Positions 19,639-26,333 of a stretch of 32,587 nt of DNA are shown here, one piece after another. Made by a program: the position numbers and the translations under genes. The notes under the pieces were generated by a model. It was not told the DNA's origin, ran no database searches, and saw only the letters and a program-made list of their open reading frames with translations. The stretch comes from Chromatiaceae bacterium (GTDB lineage: Bacteria > Pseudomonadota > Gammaproteobacteria > Chromatiales > Chromatiaceae): NCBI GenBank assembly GCA_024639005.1, contig JAHEJD010000026.1:1-32587 (forward strand), read 5' to 3'. Positions within the stretch are counted from its first letter, which is position 1, and the number at the start of each line of letters is the position of its first letter.

Positions 19639-20022
19639 TCAGGCGGTGTCGGTGGCGAGCATCAACGCGAGTGCCGCGCGCCGCTCCTCGGCGATCAAGA
19701 TATTGTAAGTCCGGCAGGCCGCCGCGTTGTCCATCACCTCAAAGCCGATGCCGAGGTCCATCAAGGTGCCGAAGATCGCGAGATCGGGGAACATCTGGCG
19801 CTCTCCAGTCCCCAGGATCAGCACCTCGGGCCGGTGCTCGATGATCGGTCCAAAGTCGGACCCGCGCAGTGTGCCCGCGTCGTTCGGCCCCCACTCCGCC
19901 AACAGGTGATGCGGCATCACGATCAGACTGCGGGAGTAGTGGCGGTCTCTGATCTGCACCCGGCCGGGCGCATAGCTCTTGATAACGTTGACGCCACTGG
20001 CGTTGTCGAGGGCTATTTTCAT
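19639..20022 (-). CDS. Mth938-domain (DUF498) protein
   Basis: Small soluble protein of 127 residues in the Mth938/NDUFAF3-like family, whose eukaryotic member helps assemble respiratory complex I. The bacterial function is not established. Family landmarks are IKSYAPGRVQIRDRHYSRSLIV near the start, the central VLILGTGERQMFP and the later GIGFEVMDNAAACRTYNIL with its 'TYN' turn. No signal peptide or membrane segment is visible. It is transcribed in the same direction as the ATPase operon with a 119-base gap, so the two are probably separate units. It is divergent from the aminotransferase gene. In other proteobacteria such genes often stand next to unrelated neighbours, so context says little. 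Confidence 0.85.
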   Translation of the reverse strand: MKIALDNASGVNVIKSYAPGRVQIRDRHYSRSLIVMPHHLLAEWGPNDAGTLRGSDFGPIIEHRPEVLILGTGERQMFPDLAIFGTLMDLGIGFEVMDNAAACRTYNILIAEERRAALALMLATDTA

Positions 20023-20090
20023 CGCTGGCTCCCAATACCGTCGATCACCCGTCCCGGATTCGGCGACCTTGGCCTAATCGATTAATTTCA

Positions 20091-20120
20091 TTGACATTTT
20101 AATCGCCATTCCTGTAGCTT
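20091..20120 (+). promoter_or_regulatory. Candidate sigma-70 promoter for the alaC-hom-thrC group
   Basis: A perfect -35 box TTGACA (20091-20096) is followed after 18 bases by TAGCTT (20115-20120) as a weak -10. It lies in an unusually AT-rich stretch (20080-20105) between two divergent genes and about 42 bases before the chosen start codon. The weak -10 limits confidence. Confidence 0.45.
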
Positions 20121-20161
20121 ACACGGCTTATTTCGGCCCCTTTCCGCACTCGAGGTTGCCC

Positions 20162-21379
20162 GTGTCATCGCCGGAGATGGAAGACTTCCACAGAATCAAA
20201 CGCTTGCCGCCTTACGTATTCGCAATCGTGAACGACCTCAAGGCAGCGGCGCGGGCGCGCGGAGAGGATATTATAGACTTCGGCATGGGCAATCCTGATC
20301 AGCCGACGCCCAAGCATATCGTGGACAAGCTGGTGGAGGCTGCACGGCGCCCGGGCACCAATCGTTACTCGGTCTCGCGTGGCGTGCCGCGGCTGCGCCG
20401 CGCGATCTGCAATTGGTACAAGGCCCAATTCGACGTGACGCTCGACCCGGACACCCAGGCGATTGTCACTATCGGTTCGAAGGAAGGCCTGGCGCATCTG
20501 GCGCTGGCCTGCATGGGACCGGGAGACTCGGTGCTGGTGCCCAACCCGGCCTATCCGATCCACCCGTATGGCTTCATCATTGCCGGCGCAGACGTCCGCC
20601 ATGTGCCCATGACGCCGGAGCATGACTTTTTCGAGGAGCTGCAAAAGGCAATCGAAGAGTCCTGGCCGCGACCGAAGATGCTGGTAGTCAATTTCCCCGG
20701 CAACCCGACCACCCAGTGTGTCGACCTCGCGTTTTTCGAACGCGTCATCGAGATCGCCAGGGCACACAATATCTGGGTGGTGCATGATCTGGCCTATGCG
20801 GCGATTTCATTCGATGGCTATAAGGCCCCGTCGATTCTTCAGGTCGCAGGCGCTGAGGATATCGCCGTCGAATTCTATTCGATGTCCAAGACCTATAGCA
20901 TGCCCGGGTGGCGGGTAGGTTTTATGGTCGGGAACAAGACCCTGGTAGCGGCGCTGGCTAAGATCAAGTCCTATCTCGATTACGGGATGTTCACGCCGAT
21001 CCAGGTGGCTGCGATCGCTGCGCTGGAAGGCCCACAGGACTGTGTCGACGAGATCCGTGACATGTATCAGCGGCGTCGCGATGTCCTGTGTGACGGCCTG
21101 AATGCGATGGGCTGGACGGTGCAGAGACCCAAGGCGACCATGTTCGTGTGGGCGCCGATACCCGAACCCTATCGGCAGATGGGCTCCCTGGAGTTTTGCA
21201 AGAAGCTGCTGCAGGAGGCGAAGGTGGCGGTCGCGCCGGGTATCGGTTTCGGCTCCTACGGTGAGGATCACGTCCGCTTCGGCCTGATCGAAAATGAACA
21301 TCGTACTCGCCAGGCGCTGCGGGGCATCAAAGAGATGTTCCGTCGCGATGGCGTCAATGATCTGGTCGGCCAAGCGTGA
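20162..21379 (+). CDS. alaC: AlaC-type pyridoxal-phosphate aminotransferase
   Basis: Class I/II aminotransferase, probably glutamate-pyruvate (alanine) transaminase. In this setting a role in aspartate-family amino-acid supply is also possible. The chosen GTG start at 20162 (405 aa) has CGAGG six bases upstream. The TTG at 20156 overlaps that site and the ATG at 20177 has no spacing to its GGAG. The start of the mature sequence, [19 protein letters not shown], is typical of AlaC. The PLP lysine is K243 in [15 protein letters not shown], and the substrate-site motif [10 protein letters not shown] precedes it. It ends about 50 bases before hom, consistent with co-transcription. LL-diaminopimelate aminotransferase-like and aspartate transaminase activities are the alternatives. 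Confidence 0.85.
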
Positions 21380-21429
21380 GCGGTGTGCGATCGGTTGGCT
21401 ATTGAGCGAAAGACTGGGAGTAGAGAGGC

Positions 21430-22740
21430 GTGGATCCTGTAAGAGTCGGCCTGCTGGGCCTTGGTACCGTCGGTGGCGGCGCCCTCAACGTACTGGTGCG
21501 GAATGCGGCAGAGATCGCGCGGCGCGCGGGGCGGGGGATCGTCGTTGCGCACGCGGCGGCCCGCGAGTATGACGCCGACGGCCTCGAGGGGCTGGATCAG
21601 GTCGAGGTCTGCGACGACGCCTTTGCCGTGGTCGACAATCCGAAGGTCGACATCGTCGTCGAACTGATCGGGGGCTACTCGCCGGCGCGCGAGCTGGTGC
21701 TCAGGGCGATTGACAACGGCAAGCATGTGGTGACCGCCAACAAGGCCCTGATCGCACTGCACGGCAACGAGATCTTCGCGGCGGCTCAGGCGAAGGGTGT
21801 GACCGTAGCCTTCGAGGCCGCAGTCGCCGGCGGCATCCCGATCATCAAGGCCCTGCGCGAGGGACTCGCAGCCAACCATATCGATTGGATCGCCGGCATC
21901 ATCAACGGCACCGGCAACTTCATCCTCACCGAGATGAAAGACAAGGGCCGCGACTTTGTGGAGGTATTGGCTGAGGCGCAGGCACTCGGCTATGCAGAGG
22001 CCGACCCCACTTTCGACGTGGAGGGGATCGACGCGGCGCACAAGCTGACGATCCTGGCATCGCTGGCCTTTGGTATCCCTTTGCAATTCGACAAGTGCTA
22101 TACCGAGGGCATCAGCCGGATCGAGCCGCAGGACGTGGCCTATGCCGAACAGTTCGGTTACCGCATCAAGCACCTCGGCGTTACCCGGCGTACCGACAAG
22201 GGTATCGAGCTGCGCGTCCATCCTACGCTGATTCCGCACAGCCGCCTGATCGCCAACGTCAACGGCGTGATGAACGCAGTGCTGGTGCAGGGGGATGCAG
22301 TGGGTCCGACCCTTTACTACGGCGCCGGGGCCGGCTCGCTGCCAACCGCCTCGGCCGTCGTCGCCGACATCATCGACGTGACGCGCACGCTAACCACCGA
22401 TCCTGAAAATCGCGTGCCACACCTGGCATTCCAGCCGGGTGAGTTATCCGATCTGTCGGTCGTGTCGGTGGACGAGGTGAAGACAGCCTACTATCTGCGC
22501 ATGACCGCGGTGGACAGGCCGGGCGTCGTGGCGGCGGTGGCCGGGATCCTCGCCGACGCCGACATCAGCATCGAGGCTATTCAGCAGAAGCAGCCGCCCG
22601 AGGGCGAGACCGAGGTGCCGCTGGTGATGCTGACGCACCGGGTGCGAGAGCGTCAGATGAACGCGGCGATCGAAAAGATCGAGTCGTTAGACGCCGTGGC
22701 CGGCGCGGTCACCCGCATCCGCGTCGAGCAGCTCAAGTGA
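21430..22740 (+). CDS. hom: Homoserine dehydrogenase
   Basis: Reduces aspartate semialdehyde to homoserine with NAD(P)H, the branch point to threonine and methionine. The monofunctional 436-residue form has an N-terminal Rossmann domain (VGLLGLGTVGGG, about 5-16) and the active-site region ANKALIALHG. The catalytic-domain signature AAVAGGIPIIKAL runs into GIINGTGNFILTEM. A C-terminal ACT domain (about 352-434, MTAVDRPGVVAAVAGIL) is probably the threonine feedback site. The GTG start has GGGAG (21416-21420) nine bases upstream. It is not fused to an aspartokinase, unlike E. coli ThrA. Four bases separate it from the next gene. Confidence 0.96.
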   Translation: MDPVRVGLLGLGTVGGGALNVLVRNAAEIARRAGRGIVVAHAAAREYDADGLEGLDQVEVCDDAFAVVDNPKVDIVVELIGGYSPARELVLRAIDNGKHVVTANKALIALHGNEIFAAAQAKGVTVAFEAAVAGGIPIIKALREGLAANHIDWIAGIINGTGNFILTEMKDKGRDFVEVLAEAQALGYAEADPTFDVEGIDAAHKLTILASLAFGIPLQFDKCYTEGISRIEPQDVAYAEQFGYRIKHLGVTRRTDKGIELRVHPTLIPHSRLIANVNGVMNAVLVQGDAVGPTLYYGAGAGSLPTASAVVADIIDVTRTLTTDPENRVPHLAFQPGELSDLSVVSVDEVKTAYYLRMTAVDRPGVVAAVAGILADADISIEAIQQKQPPEGETEVPLVMLTHRVRERQMNAAIEKIESLDAVAGAVTRIRVEQLK

Positions 22741-22744
22741 CGGT

Positions 22745-23740
22745 TTGATCCGCCACCTGTTCGTGCCTGGCCTGCTCGGCCCCATGCCGGGAGTCGAGCG
22801 CAATGGGCGGCAGGGCTTGCCGCAACTGGAGGTGCTGCTGGCGCGCGCCGACCGCCTCGTCGAGCCGGTCGGCTACGCGGGGGGATTGTTTGCGCTGTTC
22901 GGCATTGACACGCCGGTCGCGGCCGACCTGCCCACTGCCGCGGTGAGTTTCCTCGGTGATACCGGCGAGGCCCCGGTGGGGTTTCTGTTGCACGCCGATC
23001 CCGTCCAGCTGATTCCCGACCGGGACTGCCTGCTGGCCTTCGATCTGAACGACGATCCGCTCGATGGCGACGAGGTCGCCCGGCTGGTCGAGGTCTTCAA
23101 TGCCCATTTCAGCGACGACGGCATCCGCCTCTTCGGCAGCCGTGCCGGCCATCTCTACCTGCGTTGCGATCTGCCTCCGTCGATTCAGACGCACCCACTG
23201 TCGGCGGTGATCGGGCGCAATCTTTACCGCTTGCTGCCCGAGGGTGACGACCGGCAACGGTGGCGGGGTCTGCTCAACGAGACCCAGATGCTGTGCCATG
23301 CCCTGGAATTCAACCACGAACGCGAGGCCCAGTGTCGGCCGACCCTGGGCGGTCTTTGGTTCAGCGGCGGTGGCAGCCTGCCGCCAGAGGGACAGAGCCC
23401 CGTGGCCCGGCTGGTCGGCGACGGCGTCCTGCCACGCGGGCTGCTGGCGCTGCGACCCGGCGTCGATGGAGATGAACTGGTCATCGAGGACGCACTGGGC
23501 CGGGCGGTGACGCGCGTCGATCAAGGGGGCTGGCTGCGAGCACTCGCCGAACTCGAGGAGCGCATGCCGGACCTGCTGCAAGGCTGCGACGAACTGTATG
23601 TCCATCCCGGTAACGGGACCGTTTACCGCTGGTTCCCGAGGTTGGCTTGGCGCGCGTGGCGCAGGAAGCGGCCCCTGTTCGAGTACCTGGACGCCAACCC
23701 GGAGGCGCCTGGCGGTCCCGCTGTCGACAAAGGGTTATAA
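22745..23740 (+). CDS. COG4255-type conserved protein (often labelled phosphoglycerate mutase)
   Basis: A 331-residue soluble protein of unknown function. It resembles a proteobacterial family that databases variously name 'phosphoglycerate mutase' or 'RpfE-type regulatory protein'. I see no metal-binding or phosphatase motif that would prove mutase activity. Landmarks are the start IRHLFVPGLLG, the motifs LHADPVQLIPDRD and FNAHF, the region LPEGDDRQRWRGLLNETQM, and the glycine-rich LWFSGGGSLP. The start is a TTG four bases after the hom stop with no clear ribosome site, so coupling to hom is likely and the start is uncertain. Its last codons contain a possible -10 element for thrC. A side role in threonine or one-carbon metabolism is only a guess from location. 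Confidence 0.72.
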   Translation: MIRHLFVPGLLGPMPGVERNGRQGLPQLEVLLARADRLVEPVGYAGGLFALFGIDTPVAADLPTAAVSFLGDTGEAPVGFLLHADPVQLIPDRDCLLAFDLNDDPLDGDEVARLVEVFNAHFSDDGIRLFGSRAGHLYLRCDLPPSIQTHPLSAVIGRNLYRLLPEGDDRQRWRGLLNETQMLCHALEFNHEREAQCRPTLGGLWFSGGGSLPPEGQSPVARLVGDGVLPRGLLALRPGVDGDELVIEDALGRAVTRVDQGGWLRALAELEERMPDLLQGCDELYVHPGNGTVYRWFPRLAWRAWRRKRPLFEYLDANPEAPGGPAVDKGL

Positions 23741-23741
23741 T
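23736..23741 (+). promoter_or_regulatory. Perfect -10 box before thrC
   Basis: TATAAT overlaps the stop codon of the preceding gene and would place a transcription start about 25 bases before the thrC ATG. No good -35 is visible at the right distance (GGTCCC at 23714-23719), so it may be inactive or need an activator. Confidence 0.3.
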
Positions 23742-23772
23742 CCCGCGCTTTGTTGGGTTCACGGCGCGCGCC

Positions 23773-25245
23773 ATGCTTTTCATCGAAACCCGGGGCAACG
23801 ATGGCAGTCGCCCGTCATCCGTCACCTTTTCCGAGGCGATTCTCAGCCCGTTGTGCTCTTTCGGCGGGCTCTACGTGCCCGAAAGCCTGCCAAGGCTGGG
23901 TGAACCCTTCCTCCAAGCGCACCTGGACAGTGACTACAAGACGCTGGCGCGCGCCGTGCTCACCGCCTTCGAACTGGATATCGACCAAGCGGTGATCGAC
24001 CGCGCCCTGGACCTGTACGACGGCTTCGATGACCCGTCGCACCCAGTGCCGGTGGTGCGCGTACGCGATGATCTGTTCGTCGCCGAGCTCTATCGCGGGC
24101 CTACCAGGGCCTTCAAGGACATGGCCCTGCAGCCCTTCGGCGTGGTGCTGTCCAGCCTGGCCAAGGCCCGAGACGAGCGCTACCTGATCCTCGCAGCGAC
24201 CAGTGGCGATACCGGGCCGGCGACGCTGGAAACCTTCAAGGACCGCCCGAATGTAAAGGTGGCCTGTCTTTACCCCGATGGTGGAACGTCGGACGTGCAG
24301 CGTCTGCAGATGGTGACCGCGGATGCGCCGAACCTGAAGGTGATCGGCATCCACGGCGATTTCGACGACGCGCAGTCCGCGCTCAAGACCCTGTTGTCGT
24401 CCGATTCGTTCCAGGCCCGGCTGCGCGAACGTCACACCCACCTGTCCGCCGCCAACTCGGTCAATTTCGGCCGCATCATCTTCCAGCAGATCTACCACAT
24501 CCACAGTTACCTTGAACTGGTGCGCCAGGGTGCGATTGGGCTCGGCGACAGGGTTTACCTGAACGTACCCAGCGGCAATTTCGGCAATGCGCTGGGTGGC
24601 TACTACGCGATGAAGATGGGGCTGCCGGTGGAGAAGATACTGATCTCCTCGAACAGCAACAACGTACTGACCGAGCTCATTCGCATCGGGCGTTACGATA
24701 TAAGCGGCCGCAAAGTGATCGCGACCAGATCGCCGGCCATGGACATCCTCAAGTCGTCGAACGTCGAGCGCGTACTCTACGACCTGTTCGGTGCGCGGCG
24801 CACACGCGAGCTGATGGCCGCACTGGACGAGCGTCGGCACTACCAGTTGACCGGTGAGGAGCTGGCTTCGCTACAGGCCGTGTTTGCCGCCGACTACGCC
24901 GACGATGCGGAGATAGATGCCTGCATCCGTGAGACCTTCCGCGATCACGGTTACCTGATGGACCCGCACACCGCGATCTGCTTCAAGACCCACGCCAGTT
25001 GCCGCGACAAGTCGCTGCCGGACATCGTCTATTCCACTGCGGAATGGACCAAGTTCTCGCCGACTATCGCGCACGCGCTGACCGGCGAGGTGGACAGCCA
25101 CGACATCGATGCCCTGAAATCGATTTCCGCCACCGCCGATACGCCGATCCCGCCAATGATCGGGGCCCTGTTCGACAGGCCGGTCGCGCAGGATGCCGTG
25201 ATCGACAAAGAGGATATCGAGCAGGTAGTGCTGGCGTTCATCTGA
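23773..25245 (+). CDS. thrC: Threonine synthase
   Basis: Converts O-phosphohomoserine to threonine with pyridoxal phosphate. It is the long (class 2, E. coli/yeast-like) form at 490 residues. The reading frame is open further upstream (an ATG at 23647), but the family begins at ATG 23773 (MLFIETRGND) and the extra sequence overlaps the preceding gene. The N-terminal motif SFGGLYVPESLP is diagnostic. The PLP lysine is K115 in RAFKDMALQPFG, the phosphate-binding loop is AATSGDTGPATL, and SGNFGNALGGYYA follows. The matching homoserine kinase (thrB) is not in this window. The gene faces the sugar-epimerase gene convergently. Confidence 0.96.
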   Translation: MLFIETRGNDGSRPSSVTFSEAILSPLCSFGGLYVPESLPRLGEPFLQAHLDSDYKTLARAVLTAFELDIDQAVIDRALDLYDGFDDPSHPVPVVRVRDDLFVAELYRGPTRAFKDMALQPFGVVLSSLAKARDERYLILAATSGDTGPATLETFKDRPNVKVACLYPDGGTSDVQRLQMVTADAPNLKVIGIHGDFDDAQSALKTLLSSDSFQARLRERHTHLSAANSVNFGRIIFQQIYHIHSYLELVRQGAIGLGDRVYLNVPSGNFGNALGGYYAMKMGLPVEKILISSNSNNVLTELIRIGRYDISGRKVIATRSPAMDILKSSNVERVLYDLFGARRTRELMAALDERRHYQLTGEELASLQAVFAADYADDAEIDACIRETFRDHGYLMDPHTAICFKTHASCRDKSLPDIVYSTAEWTKFSPTIAHALTGEVDSHDIDALKSISATADTPIPPMIGALFDRPVAQDAVIDKEDIEQVVLAFI

Positions 25246-25276
25246 CGCAGCCGCGCGGTGCCTTTGGCGTCGGGAA

Positions 25277-25318
25277 GGCCTGCGCCGGCGGTCCCTTCAG
25301 GCGCCGCCTTTACAGGCC
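25277..25318. terminator. Putative bidirectional terminator between thrC and epimerase
   Basis: Nested inverted repeats lie in the 80-base convergent gap. The outer arms are GGCCTG (25277-25282) and CAGGCC (25313-25318). The inner arms are GGCGG (25287-25291) and CCGCC (25304-25308). The symmetric position between two converging genes suits a two-way terminator, but there is no long T-tract on either side. Confidence 0.4.
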
Positions 25319-25325
25319 CTGCAAT

Positions 25326-26333
25326 TCAGACCCTGTAGTAGTCGCGGTACCAGGCGACGAAGTTGGCGACGCCTTCCTCGACGGAGGTGGCGGGCTTATA
25401 GTCAAGGTCGGCGACCAGATCCTCGACGTTTGCATAGGTGTCGGGGACGTCGCCCGGCTGCAGCGGCAGCAGCTCCTTTTCGGCGGTCATGCCGAGGCAT
25501 TTTTCCAGCGTCTCGATGTAGTGCATCAGCTCGACCGGGTTATTGTTGCCAATATTATAGAGTCGGTACGGCGCGCGACTGGTCGCCGAGTCCGGCGTAT
25601 CGCCGTTCCAGTCCGGGTTAGGGTGCGCCGGCCGATCGAGCACGCGGATCACGCCCTCTACGATGTCGTCGATGTATGTGAAATCACGCCGGTGCCGACC
25701 ATAGTTGAATACCGGAATGGATTCCCCGGCCAGGATGTTCTTGGTGAATTTGAACAGCGCCATGTCCGGCCTTCCCCAGGGGCCGTACACGGTGAAGAAG
25801 CGGAGTCCGGTGGTAGGTATGCCATACAAGTGGCTGTACGCATGCGCCATCAATTCATTGGCCTTCTTGGTGGCGGCGTACAGGCTCACCGGATGGTCGA
25901 CGTTATCGTGCACCGAGAATGGCATATTGGTGTTCGATCCGTACACAGAGCTGGACGAGGCGTACACTAGGTGTTCTACGCGGTGATTCCTGCATCCCTG
26001 CAGGATATTGCCAAAGCCGACCAGGTTGCTGTCGATGTAGGCGTCGGGATTCTCGATCGAATAGCGGACGCCTGCCTGTGCGGCGAGATTGATCACACGC
26101 TGCGGCTGGTGGTCGGCGAAGGCCTTGGCCATCGCAGCACGGTCTTCGATGCGTGCGCGTATGTCGCTGTAGTTGGGATGGTCACGGGTGCGTGCGAGCC
26201 GCGCCTCCTTCAGCGTCACGTCGTAATAAGGGTCGAGACAGTCGACGCCGATGACTTCATCGCCACGCTCCAACAGGCGCAGCGCGAGTTCAGAACCAAT
26301 AAAGCCGGCGCTTCCGGTGATCAAAACACGCAT
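25326..26333 (-). CDS. UDP-glucuronate 4-epimerase-like NAD-dependent epimerase
   Basis: Short-chain extended dehydrogenase that probably interconverts UDP-glucuronate (or a related UDP-uronate) and its galacto form for polysaccharide synthesis. The 335 residues show the NAD loop GSAGFIG (7-13), active-site Ser region SSSSVYG (126-132) and the YxxxK pair Y152/K156 in [27 protein letters not shown] and [17 protein letters not shown] are typical of the LspL/Cap1J group rather than of WbpP/TviC. The gene follows the UDP-sugar dehydrogenase by 21 bases on the same strand, a natural pair because the dehydrogenase makes the uronate substrate. Confidence 0.85.

Follow-up and report, generated by a model that had tools for sequence, protein, structure and literature searches.

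The open reading frame directly behind the homoserine dehydrogenase gene in the 32,587-nucleotide stretch of Chromatiaceae DNA analysed here (the window) encodes a protein of 331 amino acids that, judging by sequence profiles and modelling, has the fold of archaeal-type cofactor-independent phosphoglycerate mutases (apgM) and no phosphatase-type active site. It is unlikely to be the missing homoserine kinase (HSK). The preferred reading, to which we give about an even chance, is a non-catalytic pseudoenzyme of the apgM fold with a retained cap, distinct from HSK and acting as an accessory protein or regulator of the threonine branch.

Genomic locus

The gene and its neighbours are arranged as follows:

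20156..21379, + strand: aat, class I/II aminotransferase, upstream of hom; NF006033 (alanine transaminase family), 747.2 bits, over the cut-off
21430..22740, + strand: hom, homoserine dehydrogenase with an ACT domain; NF004976, 584.7 bits, over the cut-off; PF00742, PF03447 and PF01842
22745..23740, + strand: gene under study, TTG start, 331 aa
23773..25245, + strand: thrC, threonine synthase of the long type with Thr_synth_N; TIGR00260, 260.6 bits, over the cut-off; PF14821 and PF00291

The preliminary description had placed the gene 4 bases past hom and 32 before thrC, with a TTG start and apparent coupling to hom; the ORF coordinates agree, the linkage to hom and thrC is tight, and both neighbours score above the cut-offs of their family models. 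The 32-nt gap is counted to the thrC ATG at 23773, which was read from the sequence (MLFIETRGNDG...); the program-made ORF list gives a longer frame with a TTG start at 23647. A scan of positions 20000–25500 found no sigma-70-like promoter sites, and five terminator-like sites versus 3.2 expected.

Comparison with the same-genus genome G003 gave a pN of 0.143 and a pS of 0.434, and the gene is under purifying selection in this pair; these values, together with relatives in 182 of 281 Gammaproteobacteria, identify the ORF as a real gene. The pN of hom and thrC in the same pair is 0.063 and 0.061, so that the protein under study changes about twice as fast. Named records with close relatives belong to Chromatiaceae, Sedimenticola, Thiocapsa and similar bacteria; the family label we take, like the preliminary description, to be COG4255, and its proteins presumably carry the database name 'phosphoglycerate mutase'.

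Homology and predicted fold

Searches with the window protein alone revealed no match to Pfam at E ≤ 10, none to PHROGs and only a weak NCBIfam match to apgM (NF003242, residues 105–213, E 0.0011, 18 bits with a cut-off of 426); the ThrB (GHMP), thrB_alt (APH-like) and ThrH profiles were absent from its NCBIfam matches at E ≤ 1. When the 33 members of a family alignment were searched at E ≤ 0.01, NF003242 matched 32 (best 4e-13), TIGR02535 matched 31 and TIGR00306 matched 26. Profile–profile comparison (hhalign) of the family with apgM relatives gave E 3.1e-17 over 282 columns, and 1.6e-22 and 8e-26 in global mode. Family alignment A1 leaves out the fragments L023 and L031, the overlong frame L029 and duplicates; six of the family hits lacking a locus were supplied from larger stretches, and G010 and G043 were left out. 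Family alignment A3 leaves out six of 80 loci (L130, L135, L140, L141, L152 and L162).

AlphaFold2 modelling based on 75 rows yielded a structure with a pLDDT of 91.9 and a pTM of 0.89. The solved structures most similar to the model were 2zkt (Z 16.8 over 286 residues, rmsd 5.3) and 3kd8 (Z 14.3), with phosphopentomutases next in the list (Z about 8.5–8.8 over about 145 residues), and Foldseek found 3idd at E 2.9e-08; a PDB sequence search with the family profile placed 2zkt at E 0.47, amid chance matches to apolipoproteins. Sequence profile and predicted fold show the gene product to be homologous to the archaeal-type phosphoglycerate mutase apgM over its full length. The alkaline-phosphatase-superfamily fold raised in the preliminary description is the one predicted. 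The lineage of the protein is that of apgM, from which the proposed homoserine kinase ThrB2 (TIGR02535) also comes.

Conserved residues and the putative active site

In enzymes of the superfamily, the first metal-ligand Asp follows strand 1, the nucleophile is a Ser or Thr with which the next helix begins, and further Asp and His ligands lie in the C-terminal part. Two stretches of the gene are relevant here:

22766..22768, + strand: codon 8, which encodes Pro and pairs with apgM's first metal-ligand Asp in the global profile alignment (V-P-G, apgM L-D-G)
23279..23374, + strand: best conserved stretch of the family alignment, residues 179–210, E-x-Q-M-L ... N-x-x-R-E ... W-x-x-G-x-G

Pro occupies residue 8 in 32 of 33 and in 74 of 75 family rows. 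No Ser or Thr reaches 50% at positions 43–47 of the family alignments, the nucleophile column being placed by secondary structure, and residues 243–296 contain no conserved His, with D259 as the only conserved acid or His, in a C-terminal half where the local and global alignments disagree and the alignment is uncertain. PF01676 (Metalloenzyme) matched none of the 33 family members at E ≤ 0.1; two true apgM relatives, used as a control, matched it at 78 and 126 bits, and true apgM relatives retain site residues, e.g., D-G-L-G-D, P-D-x-x-x-H and D-H-x-T. This argues that the active site of the alkaline phosphatase superfamily has been lost throughout the family. The preliminary description had seen no catalytic motif behind the 'phosphoglycerate mutase' label, and the alignments support it in this; the metal ligands that it suggested looking for are not conserved.

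Most of the conserved residues fall in the cap half (D92, D94, E110, N119, H121, W137, Y138, W173, N178, E179, Q181, N190, R193 and W205), and the stretch 179–210 is, by profile alignment, the counterpart of apgM HPVN-R ... G-x-G. All 75 rows share E179, M182, L183 and W205; D92, H121, Q181, N190 and R193 are each above 85%. The strong conservation of D92, D94, E110, H121, E179 and Q181 could reflect a different active site, and the protein might then be an enzyme of another reaction, with D92, D94, H121, E179, Q181, N190 and R193 as a candidate new site in the cap. PhpG (NF038358), an apgM-family protein whose name refers to a different transfer reaction and which three of the 33 members match weakly, offers a parallel; the twofold faster evolution of the protein relative to hom and thrC speaks against such an enzyme, which we consider unlikely.

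Homoserine kinases in the assembly

The window's assembly is 95.8% complete and consists of 155 contigs. TIGR00191 (thrB) gave only a partial match of 27.8 bits there, and the ORF concerned is ispE by its score of 272.5 bits; TIGR00938 (thrB_alt) and TIGR02137 (thrH) gave no match at E ≤ 0.001. The statement in the preliminary description that thrB is missing held true for the models used; the absence is likely rather than proven because the assembly is 95.8% complete.

The assembly also contains an apgM-like ORF (C155:48636-49718) scoring 315 bits with apgM and 170 bits with TIGR02535. It was considered as HSK and rejected on the strength of these scores and of the two 2-phosphoglycerate-kinase-like ORFs that it adjoins; it is a possible HSK for this one genome, and its kind, found in only six of 281 genomes, does not explain a class-wide gap. 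As a separate observation, the region C155:43.6-49.7 kb (L036:3658-9719) has the two kinase-like ORFs (NF008994, 274 and 247 bits; NF003259, 268 and 260 bits; all below the cut-off) directly before the apgM-like ORF, which is cut by the contig end; this suggests that a Chromatiaceae-like genome has 2-phosphoglycerate chemistry of the archaeal type.

Distribution among Gammaproteobacteria

The co-occurrence of the gene and HSK was assessed in 281 gammaproteobacterial genomes, sampled evenly across the class, with one profile search per gene. The gene family was found in 182 genomes, thrB in 16, thrB_alt in 108, thrH in 25, TIGR02535-like genes in 6 and thrC in 241; HSK was called at E ≤ 1e-25 (thrB, thrB_alt) or 1e-30 (thrH), and these fixed thresholds mean that weaker true HSKs can be missed and a few paralogues may be included. 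Gene and HSK occur together in 96 of the 281 genomes, the gene only in 86, HSK only in 49 and neither in 50 (p = 0.62); among the 241 thrC-positive genomes the gene is present in 96/141 with HSK (68%) versus 77/100 without (77%, p = 0.15), the Fisher p-values being indicative only, since the sampled genomes are kin. The remaining thrC-positive genomes without the gene comprise 45 with HSK and 23 without. Occurrence complementary to other HSKs, the criterion applied to ThrB2, is not seen in these proportions: the gene shows no replacement pattern because it is neither near-universal in HSK-negative nor rare in HSK-positive genomes.

A second family profile was run on fourteen of the 23 double-negative genomes, which again proved gene-negative. 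The same result was obtained with this profile for the same-genus genome G008 and for G027 (both 99% complete, scored for the gene only); G013, G025 and G033 were also gene-negative, but are 69–84% complete, and G001 and G017 carry fragments of the gene at contig ends.

These counts bear on the alternative that the gene is itself the missing HSK, an apgM descendant like ThrB2/TIGR02535 with a rebuilt, non-canonical site that phosphorylates homoserine. Its location between hom and thrC in the window's genus, the lack of thrB, thrB_alt and thrH in its own genome, its presence in 77 of the 100 HSK-less thrC-positive genomes and the distant kinship of its family with TIGR02535 are all consistent with this explanation, as is the requirement for the TIGR02535 protein BT2402 for growth without threonine, given in excerpts of the source (PMC7311316). 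The same excerpts report that an E. coli thrB mutant was not rescued by BT2402 itself, and the window protein scores 14.5 bits with TIGR02535, where the cut-off is 446.3. Along with the lost ligands and nucleophile, the retention of the gene in 96 of 141 genomes possessing a true HSK, its occurrence in the same operon position in genomes of this kind, its absence from G008 and the 23 thrC-positive genomes lacking both the gene and the searched HSK types make this explanation very unlikely. The preliminary description had suggested that the gene could supply the missing step between Hom and ThrC; the absence of thrB, the linkage, the apgM lineage and the fold stand, and the HSK role is not supported.

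The HSK gap of these bacteria is a real one: 100 of the 241 thrC-positive genomes have no thrB, thrB_alt or thrH at the thresholds used, which implies an unrecognised homoserine kinase.

Conservation of gene order

The recurrent order in relatives is aat-hom-thrC-gene-recJ-prfB-lysS, with aat kept as the upstream member of the run aat-hom-(thrC)-gene; the usual position of the gene is between thrC and recJ, and in the window lineage it lies directly behind hom. Among 60 loci with flanks of about 4 kb, chosen by their rank in score (about 31 to 95 among the 182 positives) and not drawn at random, recJ is a neighbour in 39 and threonine genes in 33. Threonine genes are adjacent in 16/32 HSK-positive versus 17/28 HSK-negative loci of this set, and recJ in 19/32 versus 20/28. 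In 28/48 HSK-positive and 26/51 HSK-negative genomes, counting the 99 with both coordinates listed, thrC is on the same strand as the gene and no more than 700 bp away. The placement of the gene beside thrC or recJ is independent of HSK status, and the same neighbours in both groups mark the gene as part of an old thr-recJ cluster, regardless of the HSK of a genome.

Whether the gene serves threonine synthesis at all is uncertain, because recJ is as frequent a neighbour (39/60 versus 33/60). Perhaps the function is tied to recJ or to the prfB-lysS side rather than to threonine, and the place behind hom in the window is left over from the ancestral arrangement; in line with this, recJ is also present in 23 of the 30 loci with flanks of 1.5 kb, and the gene-recJ pair is kept in several genomes with no hom or thrC nearby. 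The named loci nearest to the window, 80 in number, point the other way, hom and/or thrC standing beside the gene in 51 and recJ, mostly gone, in 5, and we regard a function of this kind as doubtful.

Several features of individual loci can be added. Threonine synthase in the window's genus (23773-25245, L091-L094) is of the long type with Thr_synth_N and follows the gene; most relatives have a short thrC that precedes the gene, which we read as a replacement of thrC in the operon of the window's genus. One gammaproteobacterial MAG (L106) has two hom-like ORFs in tandem before the gene, which may reflect splitting or duplication of hom. Long open frames met in the family search raised the possibility that the gene is fused with thrC or recJ; in the two genomes compared by eye, G086 and G134, the frames differ from that of thrC, and no fusion was shown.

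Proposed role

On the preferred reading, that of a non-catalytic apgM-fold pseudoenzyme, the protein descends from an archaeal-type cofactor-independent phosphoglycerate mutase, as its profile and predicted fold show. At the level of conserved residues, the superfamily's nucleophile and two-metal site have been lost, and the cap half, roughly residues 80–215, with most of the conserved residues, has been retained. The gene is an old and widespread gammaproteobacterial one, with the usual order given above. The retained cap may bind a partner protein or a small metabolite, probably a phosphorylated one, and the protein would assist or regulate the threonine branch without catalysis; it would not phosphorylate homoserine, and O-phosphohomoserine would come from a kinase outside all the models used. 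It is highly improbable that the cap half serves as a homoserine- or phosphohomoserine-binding subunit lending specificity to a promiscuous, as yet unrecognised kinase; if it did, the HSK of many thrC-positive Gammaproteobacteria without a known HSK would be a two-part enzyme that includes a pseudoenzyme.

TIGR02535 has been proposed as HSK by GapMind, where, according to excerpts, ThrB was of low confidence in 29 of 148 prototrophs and TIGR02535 was present in 15 of those (PMC7311316), and ThrB2 is described as complementary to thrB in gut bacteria in excerpts of another study (PMC9026213). HSK is given as missing in the quoted parts of papers on Methylococcus capsulatus (PMC517821), the acidophilic ammonia oxidiser Ca. 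Nitrosacidococcus tergens (PMC8115276) and vesicomyid clam symbionts (PMC2642828). Searches of the open-access literature found no mention of COG4255 and nothing related on an association of recJ, thrC and phosphoglycerate mutase; for a threonine-linked phosphoglycerate mutase pseudoenzyme, titles and the beginnings of abstracts included none on the gene's family.

The data argue that both the name 'phosphoglycerate mutase' and the guess of a homoserine kinase are wrong for this family. The HSK gap, met before in single-genome papers, now has a number, namely the 100 of 241 thrC-positive Gammaproteobacteria without the three known HSK types; the missing HSK is the larger question to which the present findings point. 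Such a pseudoenzyme, widespread and encoded in a biosynthetic operon, is also a tractable candidate for metabolite sensing.

Comparison with known systems

The apgM-like protein of C155 in the same assembly belongs to a homologous fold family and, unlike the gene product, keeps the Asp, D..H and D-H motifs; its ORF also differs from the gene in standing beside two 2-phosphoglycerate-kinase-like genes. ThrB2 (TIGR02535; BT2402) shares the superfamily and lineage, and its genes lie near threonine genes in many genomes. Adjacency to threonine genes, the other criterion applied to ThrB2, is found in the window and in 33 of the 60 loci, equally in genomes with HSK; the gene product is far below the TIGR02535 cut-off and has lost the catalytic residues, and its gene is not complementary to thrB-type kinases, whereas 278 of 300 ThrB2 genomes are without thrB in excerpts of the gut study (PMC9026213). 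With respect to archaeal-type apgM (TIGR00306, NF003242, PF10143; 2zkt, 3kd8/3idd), the gene product is shorter (331 versus about 400 aa) and devoid of the metal ligands and nucleophile, PF01676 being undetected in the 33 members, but the two have in common the whole-length fold, the sequence profile and the N-x-x-R and G-x-G motifs of the cap.
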